64,000 nucleotides of DNA from Pseudodesulfovibrio cashew (lineage in GTDB: Bacteria > Desulfobacterota > Desulfovibrionia > Desulfovibrionales > Desulfovibrionaceae): positions 2,457,501 to 2,521,500 of the forward strand of contig NZ_CP046400.1 in the NCBI RefSeq assembly GCF_009762795.1. Direction: 5' to 3'. Under the pieces are notes generated by a model. It was given only the letters and a program-made list of their open reading frames with translations, did not search any database and was not told where the DNA came from. Shown piece by piece: positions 55,644 through 63,727 of this stretch. How positions within the stretch are numbered: the stretch's first letter is position 1; every line of letters starts with the position of its first letter. The position numbers and the translations under genes are program-made.

Positions 55644-56732
55644 ATGGTTGATGTGTTGTTGAATGTGATCCTTGCCACCTGGGAGGTTCTGGTCGAGGCT
55701 GGTCCCTACGTCCTGTTCGGCTTCTTTGTGGCCGGGCTGCTCAAGGCGTACGTGCCGGACACGTTCATGGCCCGGCATCTGGGCCGCAATACCTTGTGGT
55801 CAGTGGTCAAGGCCGCCGTCATCGGCGTGCCTCTGCCGCTGTGCTCCTGCGGCGTGCTGCCCACGGCGCTCGGGTTGCGCCGGCAGGGAGCCAGCAAGGG
55901 GGCGACCACCGCGTTCATGATCGCAACACCGGAAACCGGGGTGGATTCCATGGCCGTGACCTATGCGCTCATCGACCCGATCATGACCGTGGTCAGGCCC
56001 GTGGCAGCGTCGATTACTGCTATAGTGGCGGGTGTCCTGGTCAATGCCTTTCCCGAGCGGGAACCCGAACCGTTGCCCATGGACGGGCTTACGATGTCGG
56101 GTGGACTTGGGCATATGCATGAACATGAACACGAGGGGTGCGGCTGCTCCGGCGGGCATTGCGGCGCGGACGGCAAGCCCACGGTCTACGGCAAGTTTCT
56201 GTCTGGAATGGACTACGCATTCGGAGAGATGATCAGCGACATCGGGCGATGGCTTCTGGTGGGCGCGCTCATAGCCGGGCTCATTTCCGCCTTCCTCCCG
56301 CCCGATCTGCTGGACGGCTATGTCGGGACCGGGTTCCACTCCTATCTGATCATGCTCGTTGTCGCGCTGCCCCTGTACGTCTGTGCCACGGCATCCACAC
56401 CCATAGCCGCCTCGCTGCTGCTCAAGGGACTCTCCCCGGGCGCGGCCCTGGTCTTTCTGCTGGCAGGCCCCGCCACCAATGGCGCGACCATCACGGTGAT
56501 GCTCAAGGCGCTGGGCAAGCGGGCGGCGTCCCTCTACGTCTTGTCCATAGTCCTGTGTTCCCTGGCGCTGGCCTACGTGGTCGACGCGTTGTACGCGGCC
56601 CTTGGATTGGACATCACCGCCGTGGTCTCCGGGGTAAACGAGACCCTGCCTCACTGGGTGGGAGTGGGAAGCGCGGTGCTGCTTCTGCTCCTTGTGGCTC
56701 GCAGTTTTCTGCACTCAGAAGGGGGCGGCTGA
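55644..56732 (+). CDS. SO_0444-type Cu/Zn efflux permease (permease/DUF318)
   Basis: 362 residues with about nine helices in two halves. The DUF318 signatures are VPLPLCSCGVLPTALGLRRQ near residue 60 with the CSC motif, and ATPETGVDS; the second half has CATASTPIAASLLLKGLSPG and LAGPATNGATI. A central His/Cys-rich cytoplasmic or periplasmic loop (HMHEHEHEGCGCSGGHC) near residue 155 likely binds metal. Related proteins are annotated as SO_0444 family Cu/Zn exporters; the ArsP arsenic permeases are cousins. With the ArsR gene before it, the pair is a metal-resistance operon. Confidence 0.88.
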   Translation: MVDVLLNVILATWEVLVEAGPYVLFGFFVAGLLKAYVPDTFMARHLGRNTLWSVVKAAVIGVPLPLCSCGVLPTALGLRRQGASKGATTAFMIATPETGVDSMAVTYALIDPIMTVVRPVAASITAIVAGVLVNAFPEREPEPLPMDGLTMSGGLGHMHEHEHEGCGCSGGHCGADGKPTVYGKFLSGMDYAFGEMISDIGRWLLVGALIAGLISAFLPPDLLDGYVGTGFHSYLIMLVVALPLYVCATASTPIAASLLLKGLSPGAALVFLLAGPATNGATITVMLKALGKRAASLYVLSIVLCSLALAYVVDALYAALGLDITAVVSGVNETLPHWVGVGSAVLLLLLVARSFLHSEGGG

Positions 56733-56776
56733 GGAAGCTAGCACCCCGCAGTTTGCGGAGTTGAAAATGGATAACG

Positions 56777-56808
56777 GACGGCCCGGTCATGCGGACGGGC
56801 CGTCTTTT
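56777..56808 (+). terminator. Terminator of the metal-efflux operon
   Basis: GACGGCCCG (56777-56785) pairs with CGGGCCGTC (56796-56804), loop about 10 nt, then TTTTCTTTC. Confidence 0.85.
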
Positions 56809-56862
56809 CTTTCTTCCCCGCCCGTGCTACATAGCCGCCACGAAAATACGGGAGAGATCCAG

Positions 56863-57789
56863 ATGAAGAAAATCGTGTGCGCCGTGGCGCTGGTCCTGGT
56901 CATGAGCCTTCCCGCCCTTGCCTCGGGCGAGAAAATCCGCTTCGGCATTTTGCCGGTGGTCGACACGCTGCCGCTTCAGGTGGCCGTGAGGGACGGTCTG
57001 TTCAAGGATCAGGGCCTTGACGTGGAGTTGGTCAGGTTCTCCTCGGCCCTGGAGCGCGACACGGCCATGCAGGCCGGACAGCTGGACGGTTACTTTGGTG
57101 ATATCATCGCCACCTATCTGCTGATCAGCAAGAACGTGCCCATGCACATCGCGCTGACCTCCTGGCGCACGACTCCCGGGTATCCCATGTTCGGCATCGC
57201 CCAATCCCCGGCTGCGGCCGAGCGGGGGCTGGCCGACATGAAGGGAGCCAAACTCGGCCTTTCCAAGTCCACGATCATGGACTACCTGGCCGATCGCATC
57301 TGCAAGCGTCTCGGCGTCGCTCCTGATTATTTCTCCCAGGTGGAGATCAAGAAGGTTCCCATTCGGTTGCAGATGCTGATGACCAATCAGATCGACGCGG
57401 CCCTTTTGCCGGAGCCGCTGCTCTCCCTGTCCAGGCTCAAGGGCGGCAGCATCCTGGCCACTGCCGAGAATCTGGGTATGCCGCTCACGGTGCTCTGTCT
57501 GCATCGCAAGTATTTCAAGGACGGCGCCGATGCCTACATCGGGTTCGTCGCCGCTTACAAGGAAGCGGTCCGCCGCATAGCCAACAGCCCGGAAAAGTAC
57601 AGGCCGCTCATGGCCGAGACCTGCCGCATTCCCAAACCGTTGGTCGCCGAGTTCCCCATTTATCCCTACCCCCAGCCTTCGCTGCCCACGCCCGAGGAGT
57701 TGGAGGATGTCCAGCAGTGGATGATGGAGAAGGGGCTGCTCAAGGAGGCTGTGCCTGAAGAACTGGTCTTGTCCCCCCTTATCCCGTAG
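56863..57789 (+). CDS. NMT1/NitT-TauT-type ABC transporter substrate-binding protein
   Basis: 308 residues with a signal peptide (IVCAVALVLVMSLPALASGE). The mature protein has the NMT1-like pattern: IRFGILPVVDTLPLQVAVRDG, LFKDQGLDVELVRFSSALER and LSKSTIMDYLADRICKRLGV. Such proteins bind nitrate, sulfonates, thiamine precursors or related small molecules. Substrate is unknown. It starts the three-gene ABC operon; ATP-binding protein and permease follow immediately. ATG at 56863 after GGGAGAGATCCAG. Confidence 0.88.
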   Translation: MKKIVCAVALVLVMSLPALASGEKIRFGILPVVDTLPLQVAVRDGLFKDQGLDVELVRFSSALERDTAMQAGQLDGYFGDIIATYLLISKNVPMHIALTSWRTTPGYPMFGIAQSPAAAERGLADMKGAKLGLSKSTIMDYLADRICKRLGVAPDYFSQVEIKKVPIRLQMLMTNQIDAALLPEPLLSLSRLKGGSILATAENLGMPLTVLCLHRKYFKDGADAYIGFVAAYKEAVRRIANSPEKYRPLMAETCRIPKPLVAEFPIYPYPQPSLPTPEELEDVQQWMMEKGLLKEAVPEELVLSPLIP

Positions 57790-57792
57790 ATC

Positions 57793-58527
57793 ATGCTGAC
57801 AGCTGAGAATCTGGCCAAATCCTACGACGGCGAGGCCGTGCTGAGGGACGTCTCCTTTTCCCTCGACAGGGAGGAGACCTTGGCCGTGGTCGGCCCTTCG
57901 GGGTGCGGCAAGACGACCCTGCTCTATATCTTGAGCGGCCTGGCCGCACCGGATCAGGGCAGGGCGCTGCTTCACGGCAGCCCCATCACCCGGCCTACAC
58001 CGGATATCTCCATTATCCTTCAGGACTACGGACTGTTGCCTTGGCGTACCGTCCTCGACAACGTCGCCCTCGGCCTCAAGGTGCAGGGCGTGCCAAAACG
58101 GGAGCGCCTGGAGCGGGCACGGGAGCAGTTGGCCGAGTTGGGCATCGCCGGACGCGATCAGGCCTATCCCGCCAATCTGTCCGGCGGCGAGCAGCAGCGG
58201 GTGGCCATCGCCCGTGCCTTTGTCACCCGTCCTCGGCTCATGTTGCTGGACGAGCCCTTTTCCTCCCTGGACGCCCTGACCCGCGAGCGCCTGCAGCACT
58301 CCATGCTCGACGTGTGGCAGCGGAACAAGGTCCCTTACGTGCTGGTCACCCACTCATTGGAAGAGGCCGTCATGCTCGGCAAACGGATCATGGTCATGTC
58401 TGGACGCCCGGCCAGCCCGGTGGCGGTTTTCGATAACCCCGGCTTCGGCGACGGCGACATCCTGAACACCGAATCGTGTTTCGCGCTGCTCAAGGAGCTG
58501 CGGCGCACCGTGGAGGACCTGTGGTGA
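57793..58527 (+). CDS. NitT/TauT-type ABC transporter ATP-binding protein
   Basis: 244 residues: Walker A GPSGCGKTT near residue 36, Q-loop ILQDYG, signature NLSGGEQQR near residue 132, Walker B LMLLDEPFS near 155 and VTHSLEEAV. It closely resembles SsuB/TauB ATPases. It starts 3 nt after the binding-protein stop and overlaps the permease start by 4 nt. Residues 1-30 (AENLAKSYDGEAVLRDV) are typical of the subfamily. Confidence 0.93.
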   Translation: MLTAENLAKSYDGEAVLRDVSFSLDREETLAVVGPSGCGKTTLLYILSGLAAPDQGRALLHGSPITRPTPDISIILQDYGLLPWRTVLDNVALGLKVQGVPKRERLERAREQLAELGIAGRDQAYPANLSGGEQQRVAIARAFVTRPRLMLLDEPFSSLDALTRERLQHSMLDVWQRNKVPYVLVTHSLEEAVMLGKRIMVMSGRPASPVAVFDNPGFGDGDILNTESCFALLKELRRTVEDLW

Positions 58528-59285
58528 GCTGGATGCATTCCCTGTTGCGTTACGGGCTGGTGGTCCTGTGCATAGGTCTGCTCTGGAAGGGAGCGGCCCT
58601 GGCCTTGGGCGGAGTCATCCTGCCTCACCCGGAGGAAGCTCTCCGCATCTTCTTTTTCGCGCTGACCACCAAGCTGTTCTGGGAGCACTTCATGGTCAGC
58701 GCCTACCGCGCCGTGTTCGCCATGGGTCTGGCCTGGATCGTGGCCTTCCCCCTCGGGTTGGTCATGGGCAGCGTCAAGCGGGTGGACTCGCTGCTCGCGC
58801 CGTTCGTCTTTCTTACCTACCCGGTGCCCAAGATCGTGCTCCTGCCGGTCTTCCTGCTCTTGTTCGGATTGGGAGACACAGCCAAGATCGCCATGATCGC
58901 GCTCATTCTGGGCTACCAGATCCTGGTAACCACCCGCGACGGGGTCAAGGCCGTCCACCCCAAATACTTCGACTCGGTCCGCTCCCTGGGCGGCTCGCGC
59001 CTGGACGTTCTGCGCGAGGTGCTGCTGCCCGCAGCTCTGCCTCACGGATTTACTGCCTTAAGGCTGGGAACAGGCGTGTCCGTGGCCGTGCTCTTTTTCG
59101 TGGAATCCTTTGCCACCACCCGGGGGCTGGGCTATATGATCATGGACGCCTGGGGCGCCATGGATTACCTGACCATGTTCACCGGCATTCTCGGCATGTC
59201 ACTCATGGGCGCGGCCCTGTACGAGATCGCCAATCTGCTGGAGCGGCGGTTGTGCCGGTGGATGTTTTTACGCAACAAGGGATAG
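58524..59285 (+). CDS. NitT/TauT-type ABC transporter permease, GTG start
   Basis: 253 residues with about six membrane helices. The cytoplasmic EAA-loop segment is KYFDSVRSLGGSRLDVLREV near residue 155, typical of the SsuC/TauC group. The GTG at 58524 overlaps the ATPase stop (GTGA), so translation is coupled; an ATG at 58533 is a possible alternative. A CCGTCGC/GCGACGG stem-loop follows at 59298-59317, without a T-tract. Confidence 0.92.
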   Translation: MSWMHSLLRYGLVVLCIGLLWKGAALALGGVILPHPEEALRIFFFALTTKLFWEHFMVSAYRAVFAMGLAWIVAFPLGLVMGSVKRVDSLLAPFVFLTYPVPKIVLLPVFLLLFGLGDTAKIAMIALILGYQILVTTRDGVKAVHPKYFDSVRSLGGSRLDVLREVLLPAALPHGFTALRLGTGVSVAVLFFVESFATTRGLGYMIMDAWGAMDYLTMFTGILGMSLMGAALYEIANLLERRLCRWMFLRNKG

Positions 59286-59404: not shown

Positions 59405-59507
59405 CAATCTGCTCCAGGCTGTTTCTTAACGGGTACGTGCAAGGCGGAGACAGACGCGCTCCGCAAATTGCGCATTTTGCAACAGCCCGAAAAGGGGAGG
59501 CCCCAAA

Positions 59508-60476
59508 CTGTCCGCAACCAAACTTGAATTCGACGACTCCAATCTGGCGAGCCAGCTCTTCGGCCCCCAGAACCAGCATCTCAAATTGCTGGGCGAGCGT
59601 ATCGGCACGAAGATCGAGAGCCGGGGAAACTCGGTGACCATCCAATGTGACGGGAACGACTGCCACAAGGCCGACCTGGCCGGGCAGGTGCTGACCCAGC
59701 TCTACGGCATGCTCAAGACCGGCAAGCCCCTCTATCCCCAGGACGTGGATTTCGCCTGCCGTGTGTTGGAGCGCAAACCCTCGGCCGACGTGGGACAGGT
59801 CTTCAAGGACGACGTGTACGCCACCTCGGGCAAGCGGACCGTTTCGCCCAAGACGCTGAACCAGCGCGCCTACCTGGACGCCATCCGCGAGTCCGACCTG
59901 ACTTTCGGCATCGGACCGGCGGGCACGGGCAAGACCTATCTGGCCGTGGCCATGGCCGTGGGCTCGCTGCTGCGGCGCGAGGTGAAGCGCATCGTGCTCA
60001 CCCGCCCGGCCGTGGAGGCCGGGGAGAAACTCGGGTTCCTGCCCGGCGACCTGACCGAAAAGATCAACCCCTACCTGCGTCCCCTCTATGACGGGCTGCA
60101 CGATATGCTCGACTTCGCCAAGGTGCAGGAATATCAGGAGACCGGCGTCATCGAAGTCGCCCCTCTGGCCTTCATGCGCGGGCGGACGCTGAATGACGCG
60201 TTCATCATCCTGGACGAGGCCCAGAACACCACGCCCGAGCAGATGAAGATGTTTCTCACCCGCCTGGGTTTCGGCTCCCGCGCAGTGGTCACTGGGGACG
60301 TGACACAGATCGATCTGCCGTCTCACGCCAAGTCCGGGCTGTTGCACGCAAGGGCCATCCTGGGCAAGGAGGAGTCCATCCGTTTCATCACCTTCGATGA
60401 GCACGACGTAATCCGCCATCCTCTGGTGGGGCGGATTGTCCGGGCTTACGATCGTTTCGAGAGCGGGGCCGGGTAA
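59508..60476 (+). CDS. phoH: PhoH-family ATPase, probable CTG start
   Basis: 322 residues from a CTG. The P-loop GPAGTGKTYLAVA is near residue 138; RPAVEAGEKLGFLPGDL and LDEAQNTTPEQMKMFLTRLG (Walker B) follow, then VVTGDVTQIDLP, all PhoH-like. The family may act as RNA-linked ATPases with YbeY, which is next. The first ATG/GTG/TTG in frame is a TTG at 59586, deep in the conserved N-terminal region; a CTG at 59508 is preceded 7 nt upstream by AGGGGAGG, and the codons between read like the N-terminus of PhoH (KLEFDDSNLASQLFG). No alternative start exists back to the stop at 59427. Confidence 0.92.
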   Translation: MSATKLEFDDSNLASQLFGPQNQHLKLLGERIGTKIESRGNSVTIQCDGNDCHKADLAGQVLTQLYGMLKTGKPLYPQDVDFACRVLERKPSADVGQVFKDDVYATSGKRTVSPKTLNQRAYLDAIRESDLTFGIGPAGTGKTYLAVAMAVGSLLRREVKRIVLTRPAVEAGEKLGFLPGDLTEKINPYLRPLYDGLHDMLDFAKVQEYQETGVIEVAPLAFMRGRTLNDAFIILDEAQNTTPEQMKMFLTRLGFGSRAVVTGDVTQIDLPSHAKSGLLHARAILGKEESIRFITFDEHDVIRHPLVGRIVRAYDRFESGAG

Positions 60477-60478
60477 CC

Positions 60479-60934
60479 ATGGCAGGTGCGGTAACCGTCA
60501 TACGCGAAACCCGGCTTGATCCGGGTTTTCCGCTTTCCCGCCGCGAGCTTTCAGGGTTGCTGACCGTGATCCTCGACTCTCTGGGGCTGGAGGGACGGAG
60601 CGTTGAGGTCAAGCTGGTGGGCGATGGCGAGATTGCCCGCCTTAACCGGGAATTCATGGGCTGCGAAGGGCCTACCAATATTTTGAGCTTTCCGTCCGGC
60701 GACGAGGACGGCGAATTTATGGGAGCCCTGGCCCTGTCCGTGGACGCGGTAGCCAGGGAATCATTCCTGTACGGACAGCAGCCTACGCTGCATCTGGCCA
60801 GGCTCCTGGCCCATGGCGTCCTGCATCTGGCCGGTCACGACCATGGAGAGATTATGTACGACCTGACCGACGCCGCCGTGGACCGCGTCGCGCTTGAATA
60901 CGCCATAGCCGGGGAGGACCATGCCTGGGCGTAA
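60479..60934 (+). CDS. ybeY: Endoribonuclease YbeY (rRNA maturation factor)
   Basis: 151 residues. The metal-binding motif AHGVLHLAGHDHGE (HGxLHLxGHDH) near residue 110 is diagnostic. PTNILSFP near residue 64 is also conserved. YbeY processes the 3' end of 16S rRNA and takes part in ribosome quality control. It starts 2 nt after the phoH stop, a common gene pair, and overlaps the start of the next gene by 14 nt, so the three genes probably share a transcript. Confidence 0.95.
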   Translation: MAGAVTVIRETRLDPGFPLSRRELSGLLTVILDSLGLEGRSVEVKLVGDGEIARLNREFMGCEGPTNILSFPSGDEDGEFMGALALSVDAVARESFLYGQQPTLHLARLLAHGVLHLAGHDHGEIMYDLTDAAVDRVALEYAIAGEDHAWA

Positions 60935-62489
60935 TGTCATCAAGGGCAAGCAGCTTTACCGGGTTCTCTTTTACGGTGTGATTCTCACGGCGTTGACCAT
61001 GGGAATCCTCGTCTTTTGGGGTGTGCGAGAGGTTCGCAGGGATGCCGCCGTGGTCGCTGTGGAGAATTCGGCGCGCGGTCTTGGAGGCGCGGTAACGGTG
61101 CTGGTCAACGCCGTGACCAAGTCCAACGACGAGATCGGAGCCGCCGGTCTGTCCAGCCTGTCGCCCAAGGCACTGCGAGCGCGGTACCGGTCCATGCTGG
61201 CCGGACACGCCGCTTTGGAGGCCGTTCTGGTTTCCGATGAAAAGGGGCTCCGCTATTCCCTGGCCAAGCGCGCGGACGGCATCGTCGAGCTCGTTCCCGG
61301 CAGGGGCACGGAGAACGCCCTGCGCTGGACCTTGCTGGGCAAGGGTGGCAGCGCGACGCCGACGTCTCCCGAGTGGCCCTTCGACCGTGAGGCCCTGGAC
61401 AAGGGGTTGGCCGACGAATGGGCGCACCTCCAGCCGGGACAGGTCAATTGGCGTAGCGTGTATCGGTTCTACGCCTCGGGCGAGGCTTTGCTCGCGGCGT
61501 CCACCCCGGTGGAGGCCAAGGGCGAAAAGCTCATGATTTCCTATGTCTTTCCCGTCAAAGCCGTTCTCAGGCAGTTGGGAGGTGCGGAAAAGGGTGGGGC
61601 AGAGCGCATTTTCCTCTATTGGGACAGTGGCAAAGTTCTCCCCGTCCGGGAAGTGACCGACGGCGGAGGAGACGATGCAGCGGTTCATATCGAGGAGGCC
61701 GGGCAGATCGAAGACCAGGTCGTGGACGCGGCCATCCAAAGGCTGGACAAGGACCCGGGCCAGAAAGGCAAACCGTTTCGTTACTCACTGGACGGAGAGG
61801 TCTGGTGGGCTTATGTCCTGCCTTTATCCGTGTTCGGAGACACCATCTCCCTGGGCGTGGCCGTACCCATGGCCAATGTCGTCTCTTCGCTGACCAGCGA
61901 CACATTTCTACAGATTTTCGGATTCGGCCTGGTGCTTTTGGCGGCCGGTGCGTTGCTCATCCTGCACCGGAACCGGGCACGGATAGAGGTCCTGGGAATG
62001 AAGCACGGCATGCCGCAAACGCCGGGCGACGTCTTGCGACTCATCGCCGAGGGCGAATCCTCCACTCTGGAGTTCAAGCAGACCCTGCGATTCAACCTCA
62101 AGTCGGGGAAGAACGGTAAGGAAATCGAGCATGCGAGCCTCAAGACCGTGGCCGGTTTCCTGAACTCCGAGGGCGGCAATTTGCTTATCGGCGTGGCCGA
62201 CAGTGGTGAGGTGGCCGGATTCTCGGAAGACAACTTCGCCAACGAAGATAAGGCGCTCCTGCATTTCAACAACCTGGTGAACCAGCAGATCGGCACCGAA
62301 TTTTCGAGGTATATCGATACGGCTGTTCTTGAGGTGCAGGGCAGACAGGTGCTCTGCGTCCACTGCATTCCGGCGGGCGCCCCAGCCATTCTGGACAACG
62401 GGAAGAGCGAGGAATTCTACGTGCGCAGCGGACCCGCCAGCCGCCAGTTGACCCTGAGTCAGTTTTATGAATGGCTGAAGCGGCACTGA
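60921..62489 (+). CDS. Transmembrane sensor fused to a Schlafen/AlbA_2 domain
   Basis: 522 residues. Transmembrane helix 1 is near 13-33 (VLFYGVILTALTMGILVFWG), then an extracytoplasmic region of about 290 residues (to ~325; Cache-like position, no motif I can name with certainty), transmembrane helix 2 near 332-351 (IFGFGLVLLAAGALLIL), and a cytoplasmic AlbA_2 domain (about 375-500: ESSTLEFKQTLRFNL, TVAGFLNSEGGNLLIGVAD, ending FYVRSGPASRQLT). AlbA_2 is a DNA/RNA-binding or nuclease-like module of Schlafen-type proteins. Membrane topology with a periplasmic sensor is an unusual setting for it. It overlaps ybeY by 14 nt, and an orphan binding protein follows 80 nt downstream. Confidence 0.82.
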   Translation: MPGRNVIKGKQLYRVLFYGVILTALTMGILVFWGVREVRRDAAVVAVENSARGLGGAVTVLVNAVTKSNDEIGAAGLSSLSPKALRARYRSMLAGHAALEAVLVSDEKGLRYSLAKRADGIVELVPGRGTENALRWTLLGKGGSATPTSPEWPFDREALDKGLADEWAHLQPGQVNWRSVYRFYASGEALLAASTPVEAKGEKLMISYVFPVKAVLRQLGGAEKGGAERIFLYWDSGKVLPVREVTDGGGDDAAVHIEEAGQIEDQVVDAAIQRLDKDPGQKGKPFRYSLDGEVWWAYVLPLSVFGDTISLGVAVPMANVVSSLTSDTFLQIFGFGLVLLAAGALLILHRNRARIEVLGMKHGMPQTPGDVLRLIAEGESSTLEFKQTLRFNLKSGKNGKEIEHASLKTVAGFLNSEGGNLLIGVADSGEVAGFSEDNFANEDKALLHFNNLVNQQIGTEFSRYIDTAVLEVQGRQVLCVHCIPAGAPAILDNGKSEEFYVRSGPASRQLTLSQFYEWLKRH

Positions 62490-62569: not shown

Positions 62570-63727
62570 GTGACAGGTGGCGATTTCCGAAGTCTGTGCG
62601 TGGTAGGGCGTTTTAGAACCTTTTCGGCCCTGTTCCTAATTTTATTTCTTTTGGCAGTGTCCCCTGCTTCAGCTGCTCCGCCCGTCCGAATCGCCATGAT
62701 CACAGCCAAGACGGGCGTGGCCGGAAAAACCAATTCCCTCTCTTTTGACGCCGCCCGGTTCTCCGTGGACAAGATAAACAGCGAGGGCGGCATCCTGGGC
62801 CGTTCCGTGGAGTTGTTGGAGTTCGACAACCGGAGTACCCCCGAAGGCAGCGCTCAGGCGGCGCGGCAGGCCATCAAGGACGGCGTCGTTGCCGTGGTGG
62901 GCTGCAACTGGAGCTCCCACTCCCTGGCTATGGCCGATGTGCTTCAGAAGGCCGGGGTGCCCATGGTCACTCACATGTCGACCAATCCCGCCGTGACCCG
63001 GGTGGGTGATTACATCTTCCGCATCTGCTACACGGACTCCTTTCAAGGCGCAGGCCTGGCAAGCTTTGCGCGACGGCGGCTCAGGGACAAAACCGCCGTG
63101 GTGCTTGTGGACGAGTCCCGGACCTACAGCATCGGGCTCGCCGATACCTTCATCCGCTCGTTTGAGCGGCTTGGTGGGCAGATCCTGTGGAAGGGCGTTT
63201 ATCATGCCGACTCGGTTCCGTTCGCTGCCATCATCGGCGTCGTCAATAGGTATGAGCCGGACGCGCTTTTCGTTCCCGGAGGGTATGAGGACGTGTCGGG
63301 CTTTTTCCTCGAGGCCAAGCGGACGGGCCATGACTATCACCTGCTCAGTGGAGACGGCGTGGGCATGAAACTCTTCGACTATGTTGGCCGCAACGTCAGC
63401 GGCATCTATTTTTCAAGTCATTGGAGCCGTTGGGTGAATACGGAGTTGTCACGGCGTTTCGTCAAGGAGTACGAGCAGTCCGTGGGCAAGTTGAAGGAAG
63501 ATACCTCGGCCCTGGTCTACGATAGCTTCATGTTGCTCAAGGACGCCATGGAACGGGCAGGGACCGTGGATAAGGCCAAGGTTCGTGACGCACTTGCCGC
63601 CACCAGGGGGTTCAAGGGTATTACAGGGACGATCCGTTTCGACGAAAACGGTGATCCCATCAAGCCCATGGTCATCAACGAACTCAGGTTTGGCGGGATT
63701 ATGTTTCTGGAGCAGATCGACCCCTGA
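62570..63727 (+). CDS. Branched-chain-type periplasmic binding protein, orphan, GTG start
   Basis: 385 residues. A signal peptide (FSALFLILFLLAVSPASAA) is followed by a Peripla_BP_6/LivK-type fold: IAMITAKTGVAGK, FSVDKINSEGGILGRSVEL, AVVGCNWSSHSLAMADVL, GVPMVTH and YDSFMLLKDAMERAG. The start is a GTG at 62570 with GGAG 7 nt upstream. No permease or ATPase is adjacent, so it may present a ligand to a receptor. The closest membrane protein is the AlbA_2 sensor just upstream; a link is only suggested by position. Confidence 0.86.
   Translation: MTGGDFRSLCVVGRFRTFSALFLILFLLAVSPASAAPPVRIAMITAKTGVAGKTNSLSFDAARFSVDKINSEGGILGRSVELLEFDNRSTPEGSAQAARQAIKDGVVAVVGCNWSSHSLAMADVLQKAGVPMVTHMSTNPAVTRVGDYIFRICYTDSFQGAGLASFARRRLRDKTAVVLVDESRTYSIGLADTFIRSFERLGGQILWKGVYHADSVPFAAIIGVVNRYEPDALFVPGGYEDVSGFFLEAKRTGHDYHLLSGDGVGMKLFDYVGRNVSGIYFSSHWSRWVNTELSRRFVKEYEQSVGKLKEDTSALVYDSFMLLKDAMERAGTVDKAKVRDALAATRGFKGITGTIRFDENGDPIKPMVINELRFGGIMFLEQIDP

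Follow-up and report, generated by a model that had tools for sequence, protein, structure and literature searches.

We describe a gene in a stretch of 64,000 nucleotides of the Pseudodesulfovibrio cashew genome (contig NZ_CP046400.1, positions 2,457,501 to 2,521,500 of the forward strand), which is referred to below as the window and from whose first letter coordinates are counted. Our reading, to which we give a probability of about 50%, is that the gene encodes a one-component transmembrane receptor, in which a periplasmic double-Cache (dCache) sensor is joined to an AlbA_2 output domain that cleaves RNA by a site made up of E379, E384 and D427; the nuclease step, a dimeric state and the ligand are parts of this reading that we infer. 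Input and output lie in one chain, and no kinase, receiver or other domain was found. The order of helix, outer domain, helix and AlbA_2 given in a preliminary description of the window is borne out by hydropathy, an AlphaFold2 model and Pfam, and the one-component layout proposed there holds, AlbA_2 being the only cytoplasmic domain and the outer sensor a dCache domain. The gene and the features that belong to it are as follows.

60921..62489, + strand: dCache–AlbA_2 receptor gene, open reading frame of 522 amino acids (stop included) with an ATG start
60911..60917, + strand: Shine-Dalgarno-like GGGGAGG ahead of the receptor ATG, from reading of the sequence
60963..61019, + strand: transmembrane helix 1, residues 15–33, from hydropathy and the AlphaFold2 model
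61020..61907, + strand: extracytoplasmic dCache sensor, residues 34–329, from the match of the model to dCache chains and a profile match to PctA
61908..61964, + strand: transmembrane helix 2, residues 330–348, from hydropathy and the AlphaFold2 model
62055..62450, + strand: Schlafen AlbA_2 domain, residues 379–510 (Pfam limits), from Pfam, structure and profile matches
62055..62057, + strand: E379 codon, aligned by sequence to E205 of rat SLFN13
62070..62072, + strand: E384 codon, aligned by sequence to E210 of rat SLFN13
62199..62201, + strand: D427 codon, aligned by sequence to D248 of rat SLFN13

The 522-residue span leaves only 12 residues between the end of AlbA_2 and the C-terminus. A chance reading frame was rejected, since full-length homologues are present in 30 of the 36 genomes of the genus (its own counted), and no AlbA_2 gene other than that of the receptor was found in its own genome. 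The window protein has no match among the NCBIfam families, and the matches of its relatives are weak and far below the cut-offs. A scan for promoters and terminators gave sites no more frequently than in shuffled sequence (1 versus 1.0 and 5 versus 4.6).

Membrane topology and the outer sensor

Lysine and arginine residues number four in residues 1–14, three in 34–48, none in 315–329 and four in 349–363, and these counts around the two helices fit the predicted topology, with the N-terminus inside and the middle part outside. The AlphaFold2 model (predicted local distance difference test score 82.4, predicted template modelling score 0.58) consists of a helix (residues 9–73), a mixed outer domain, a second helix (327–350) and an alpha/beta C-terminal domain. 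Cache folds had been suggested as a comparison for the outer region, and model residues 31–326 do match dCache chains in a structure search, in which the matches listed were all taken up by this part of the receptor. As modelled, the protein has the predicted hallmark of dCache receptors, two transmembrane helices around a long-helix domain of two PAS-like modules. A sensor profile that includes relatives matches PctA with an E value of 4.9e-12, and the search database assigns PF02743 to 83 of the 120 relatives listed when P0079, the full-length homologue most remote from the window protein, served as query (counted by hand). A motif of the RxRPW[YF] type is present in 95 of the 120 listed proteins of this wider family. 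The sensor is less conserved than the output domain in all of 51 homologues, with mean identities of 49.6% and 73.6%, respectively.

The AlbA_2 domain and its acidic site

The C-terminal domain belongs to the AlbA_2 fold: PF04326 (SLFN_AlbA_2) matches it with 69.5 bits against a cut-off of 25.3, over positions 1–117 of a profile of 118. The fold and the second membrane helix, on the presence of which the preliminary description had made its proposal depend, are thus both found, by the model and by hydropathy. The AlbA_2 profile also matches the Schlafens by sequence, with best E values of 1.2e-6 for SLFN13, 3.8e-6 for SLFN11, 6.6e-6 for SLFN12, 9.5e-6 for SLFN14 and 5.8e-5 for SLFN5, and the top-scoring domain among the printed Schlafen matches is the C-lobe. 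To call AlbA_2 proteins usually transcription-factor-like or nuclease-like, as had been done, was fair; among the solved relatives are RNA-cutting Schlafens and a SAMD9 tRNase domain.

Inspection of the domain for catalytic residues, also proposed at the outset, led to the E/E/D site, the position of which is assigned from sequence alignment to rat SLFN13 and not from site geometry. In a profile alignment purged of duplicate rows and of those with over 60 gaps in 166 columns, the site is intact in 80 of 80 domains of the Pseudodesulfovibrio type and in 186 of 186 other distinct dCache–AlbA_2 domains, that is, in 266/266.

Spread of the architecture and shuffling of its parts

A scan of one genome per species confirmed at least 494 loci (at least 589 stretches), of which the best 80 were kept; the scan patterns contain E384, so that this residue was selected for in the 80 loci, whereas E379 and D427 were not. 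The full layout of helix, sensor, helix and AlbA_2 is present in 76 of these best 80. Three of the exceptions are truncated where a contig ends, and in the fourth, L060, the first helix is missing from the reading frame as called. By their record titles the 80 loci come from Desulfobacterota, Gammaproteobacteria (Competibacteraceae, Chromatiales and others), Kiritimatiellales, Verrucomicrobia, Cloacimonadota and others. A search with the window protein found 96 homologues, of which 78 (P0001–P0078, the query itself among them) share at least 41% identity with it; where these 78 carry a name, it is Pseudodesulfovibrio, Desulfovibrio or Salidesulfovibrio, with the exception of one from a eukaryote transcriptome source. 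The search with P0079 gave 393 matches, and hydropathy shows the same layout in 116 of the 120 listed, the other four having the second helix only. Within the phylum of the window, 31 of 297 sampled genomes match the family profile at E 1e-30; several of these matches are to the sensor only or to AlbA_2 only, and one (in G060) is split and contains a stop. Sensor and AlbA_2 as separate genes were not met among the homologues read, no search having been aimed at split pairs. A scan of a viral collection yielded three confirmed relatives (L204–L206).

A tree of AlbA_2 domains was built from 90 rows picked by hand and by even locus number. One clade (support 100/99) mixes dCache receptors with cNMP-binding fusions, GmrSD fusions and forms with multiple transmembrane helices, and within it the N-terminal module in place of dCache may be a cNMP-binding domain, GmrSD, a hairpin of two transmembrane helices or another sensor with two such helices. 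The Pseudodesulfovibrio branch (nine rows, 99/92) is sister to non-dCache fusions, with a joint support of 98/96. Conversely, sensors which match the family profile are also found on a SpoIIE phosphatase, a nucleotide cyclase and a histidine kinase. Judged from sequence, AlbA_2 occupies the place of an output in signalling proteins, and shuffling of sensors and outputs such as this is what would be seen if it were a regular output domain of such proteins.

Individual forms differ in their membrane part. L203:699–2042 has two transmembrane helices around a smaller outer domain, followed by AlbA_2, and L191:358–1161 and L196:351–1211 have a two-helix hairpin and AlbA_2 without a large outer domain. 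In P0095 (614 amino acids) and P0091 (308 amino acids), AlbA_2 comes after several hydrophobic stretches; P0095 also joins AlbA_2 to a HAD-type hydrolase part, which may be genuine or an artefact of prediction.

Linkage to phoH and ybeY within the genus

The genes on either side of the receptor are the following.

59508..60476, + strand: phoH, start uncertain, the conserved reading opening with an in-frame CTG at 59508 (PhoH, E 1.1e-95)
60479..60934, + strand: ybeY, overlapping and upstream of the receptor gene, a link seen within one genus
62570..63727, + strand: Peripla_BP_6 binding protein (Pfam), a neighbour and not a conserved partner

The overlap with ybeY, which amounts to 14 nt up to position 60934, and the binding protein gene that follows are both as the preliminary description had them. 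Synteny was examined in 20 fetched genomes, out of 29 others that have a full-length match, and at four more loci on contigs of the genome scan; the order phoH–ybeY–receptor was found in 20/20 and in all four, and so in 24/24 of the relatives examined that carry the gene. In the 20 fetched loci the gap between ybeY and the receptor ranges from −14 to +20 nt (start codons set by alignment), and since the genes are so closely spaced, the receptor is probably co-transcribed with phoH and ybeY in Pseudodesulfovibrio. Outside the genus, tblastn (E 1e-3) found phoH or ybeY in 0 of 73 loci, whose flanks were often short (1 kb or more to either side in 53 loci, 3 kb or more in 34). The proposed link to phoH and ybeY therefore stands for the genus but is not supported beyond it, and we rejected a general functional coupling to ybeY for the reason that the linkage is seen in one genus only. 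ybeY is an rRNA nuclease gene and, with the roles of PhoH and YbeY in mind, the position of the receptor gene fits a role in the control of RNA or translation but does not show one. The conserved N-terminus of PhoH has no ATG, GTG or TTG; an in-frame CTG at 59508, which sits 7 nt after GGGGAGG (59494–59500), may be the start codon.

Apart from the 30 genomes with a full-length copy, the genus includes one in which a fragment lies at the end of a contig, and five without such a copy. In four of these five the place behind ybeY is present without the receptor, whilst the fifth (81% complete) has no phoH match. The sole match in one of the five, G006, is a weak one to a different AlbA_2 gene, and the locus of this unrelated gene (L158) has no tblastn match to the proteins of the window. 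No full-length receptor match was found in 24 other genomes of the order. The pattern on a phoH tree of 34 rows agrees with a single gain at the root of the genus followed by three losses.

Besides the window, 4 of the 20 relatives have the Peripla_BP_6 gene after the receptor, and it lies directly behind ybeY in two of the four genus members that lack the receptor, so that either gene may be present without the other. On these counts we rejected the binding protein as a dedicated partner, and the earlier suggestion that it could deliver the ligand is not supported. At its usual place in L051 (7606–7722) there is a short fragment match to the binding protein gene, perhaps a decayed copy. Further upstream in the window (55644–59285) lie an ArsP_1 permease with a His/Cys-rich loop and then an NMT1-type binding protein, an ABC ATPase and a permease, and these last three precede phoH in 18 of the 20 relatives.

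Proposed mechanism and alternative explanations

In the proposed mechanism, the periplasmic dCache domain would sense a small molecule or another envelope condition. The second helix is predicted to run straight into AlbA_2, the sole cytoplasmic module found, and AlbA_2 must carry the output because no further domain follows or accompanies it in the cytoplasm. dCache receptors are often dimers, and a dimeric receptor would bring two AlbA_2 lobes together like the two lobes of the Schlafen core. The signal would then switch metal-dependent cleavage of tRNA or rRNA via E379, E384 and D427, which would adjust translation at the membrane. RNA cleavage is favoured on three grounds: proteins of this architecture all keep the site unchanged, RNA is cut by the closest relatives that have been tested, and ybeY and phoH accompany the gene in the window. 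More tentatively, and with doubts that slightly outweigh our confidence, we suggest that the proteins form a widespread family of ligand-gated, membrane-anchored Schlafen RNases that tune translation without a kinase, second messenger or transcription factor.

Several points weigh against RNA cleavage by a dCache receptor. The site is also intact in 13 of 19 other AlbA_2 domains, so the triad alone cannot part nuclease from non-nuclease members; of the remaining six, five have Q at the second place and one has N at the third. This comparison set was made up of 29 loci (L160–L188) less L175, L177 and L179, which align end to end, the first two of which were set aside also because they are placed among dCache rows in the AlbA_2 tree; in 19 of the remaining 26 loci all three places are aligned, and seven are gapped at both glutamates. 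Human SLFN5 retains the triad, and residues 1–336 of SLFN5 were without nuclease activity according to one study (PMC8789055). The receptor is a single AlbA_2 lobe and does not have the two fused lobes of the vertebrate SLFN core, and with only two cysteines (479 and 482) it can have no CCCH zinc finger, which PMC5862951 gives as a feature of the vertebrate SLFN C-lobe. As for the sensor, Pfam gives no match to it in the window protein, its identity coming from structure and from relatives, and the dCache_1 matches shown for the relatives scanned reach at most 35.7 bits, all under the cut-off of 45 bits. The RxRPW[YF]-type motif is missing from the Pseudodesulfovibrio type (1/76, a stray match), and its ligand class may for this reason differ or be lost.

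The main rival to RNA cleavage is regulated DNA binding. ToxR and CadC are examples of membrane-bound transcription regulators and, in their manner, AlbA_2 might bind DNA without cutting it, the sensor altering the binding. This we consider unlikely, as a Pfam scan of the window protein finds no helix-turn-helix and the invariance of the E/E/D site in all 266 domains is seemingly more than binding alone would need; moreover, one SAMD9 AlbA_2 domain is a tRNase (9o0d; PMC12331169). The domain could instead be a non-catalytic tether that anchors tRNA, mRNA or ribosomes to the membrane while the sensor is occupied, possibly beside YbeY and PhoH. AlbA-type folds frequently bind RNA, some members carry the name ‘RNA-binding domain-containing protein’, and the co-location with phoH and ybeY in the genus would accord with such a role; binding, however, needs no strictly conserved site of three carboxylates, and the co-location does not extend to the 73 outside loci with their often short flanks, which makes a tether improbable.

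Schlafen RNases do occur in BREX and other defence loci, as stated in PMC12839542, and sister AlbA_2 branches are fused to GmrSD, so that the receptor might be an anti-phage abortive-infection effector, a bacterial Schlafen set off by infection. PADLOC, run on the receptor protein, gives only one weak match (pAgo, E 0.0034) and no strong match to a defence model, and the phoH tree accords with a gene gained once and lost three times at one fixed place; for these two reasons a defence role was rejected as first choice. As the neighbours examined are, in addition, mostly housekeeping genes and the viral collection gave the three confirmed relatives, we see little chance of it. Least probable, and hardly to be credited on present counts, is a circuit in which the receptor obtains its ligand from the downstream binding protein and works together with YbeY on rRNA: the genes do adjoin in the window, and a periplasmic binding protein precedes a few distant relatives (SBP_bac_3 in two and NMT1_3 in one of 30 neighbours scanned), but the Peripla_BP_6 gene and the receptor are found apart as often as described above and the linkage to ybeY is confined to one genus.

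Relation to known systems

dCache receptors usually act through chemotaxis, phosphorylation, cyclic nucleotides or phosphatases, and three of these kinds of output were seen on sensors that match the family profile. The vertebrate SLFN C-lobe (rat SLFN13, 5yd0; SLFN11; SLFN14) is one of a fused pair, whereas the receptor has one lobe, lacks the zinc finger and helicase parts and is tethered to the membrane behind a sensor. The SAMD9 DNA-binding/tRNase domain (7ksp, 9o0d) is part of a large cytoplasmic protein, and its essential acidic residues E184, E196, E218 and D241, as given in PMC12331169, are spaced otherwise than the receptor triad. The match to DIP2311 (3lmm), a bacterial AlbA_2 protein of unknown function, covers residues 9–171 only of chains of 477–556 residues. 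The Schlafens of bacterial defence loci, as PMC12839542 describes them, are alike in having a Schlafen-family effector domain; the receptor family differs from them in its periplasmic sensor and mostly housekeeping neighbours.

A literature search found no description of a dCache–AlbA_2 receptor, most subscription papers and all preprints lying outside its scope, so a listing of the architecture may exist elsewhere. The parts are known one by one, and it seems to be their combination as a receptor family that is undescribed. Were the proposal true, bacterial signal transduction would gain a new class of output, with the usual place behind dCache taken by the tRNA-cutting domain of vertebrate Schlafens and SAMD9, and Schlafen domains would have a bacterial setting other than defence. 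The family is present in several phyla, and the proposal is directly testable, as it comes down to one gene, one domain and three residues.

Neighbours of the distant relatives

Counts of neighbour clusters rest on 75 of the 80 loci, and Pfam scans cover 30 of 31 upstream and 24 of 25 downstream genes, L059 and L094 being left out; the neighbour in L059 is a dCache_2 histidine kinase. Among the 30 operon-like upstream neighbours there are eight NhaA, eight squalene/phytoene synthases and three PLD proteins, but these 19 come mostly from three lineages and are not independent cases. The PLD genes lie ahead of the receptor in two Kiritimatiellales and one Verrucomicrobia record. nhaA stands closely before the receptor in L080, L091, L092, L096, L098, L099, L102 and L105 (mostly Desulfocapsa), which suggests an ion or envelope signal there; in seven of the eight a gene for an ABC auxiliary lipoprotein of the Mla/MCE kind is found further upstream (Pfam-checked in L099 only). 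A squalene/phytoene synthase gene precedes the receptor in L066, L072, L084, L095, L118, L119, L123, L126 and L130, one gammaproteobacterial group, in which these neighbours were Pfam-checked in L119. Eight of the nine have a second synthase behind the receptor, and a small gene on the opposite strand adjoins in eight.
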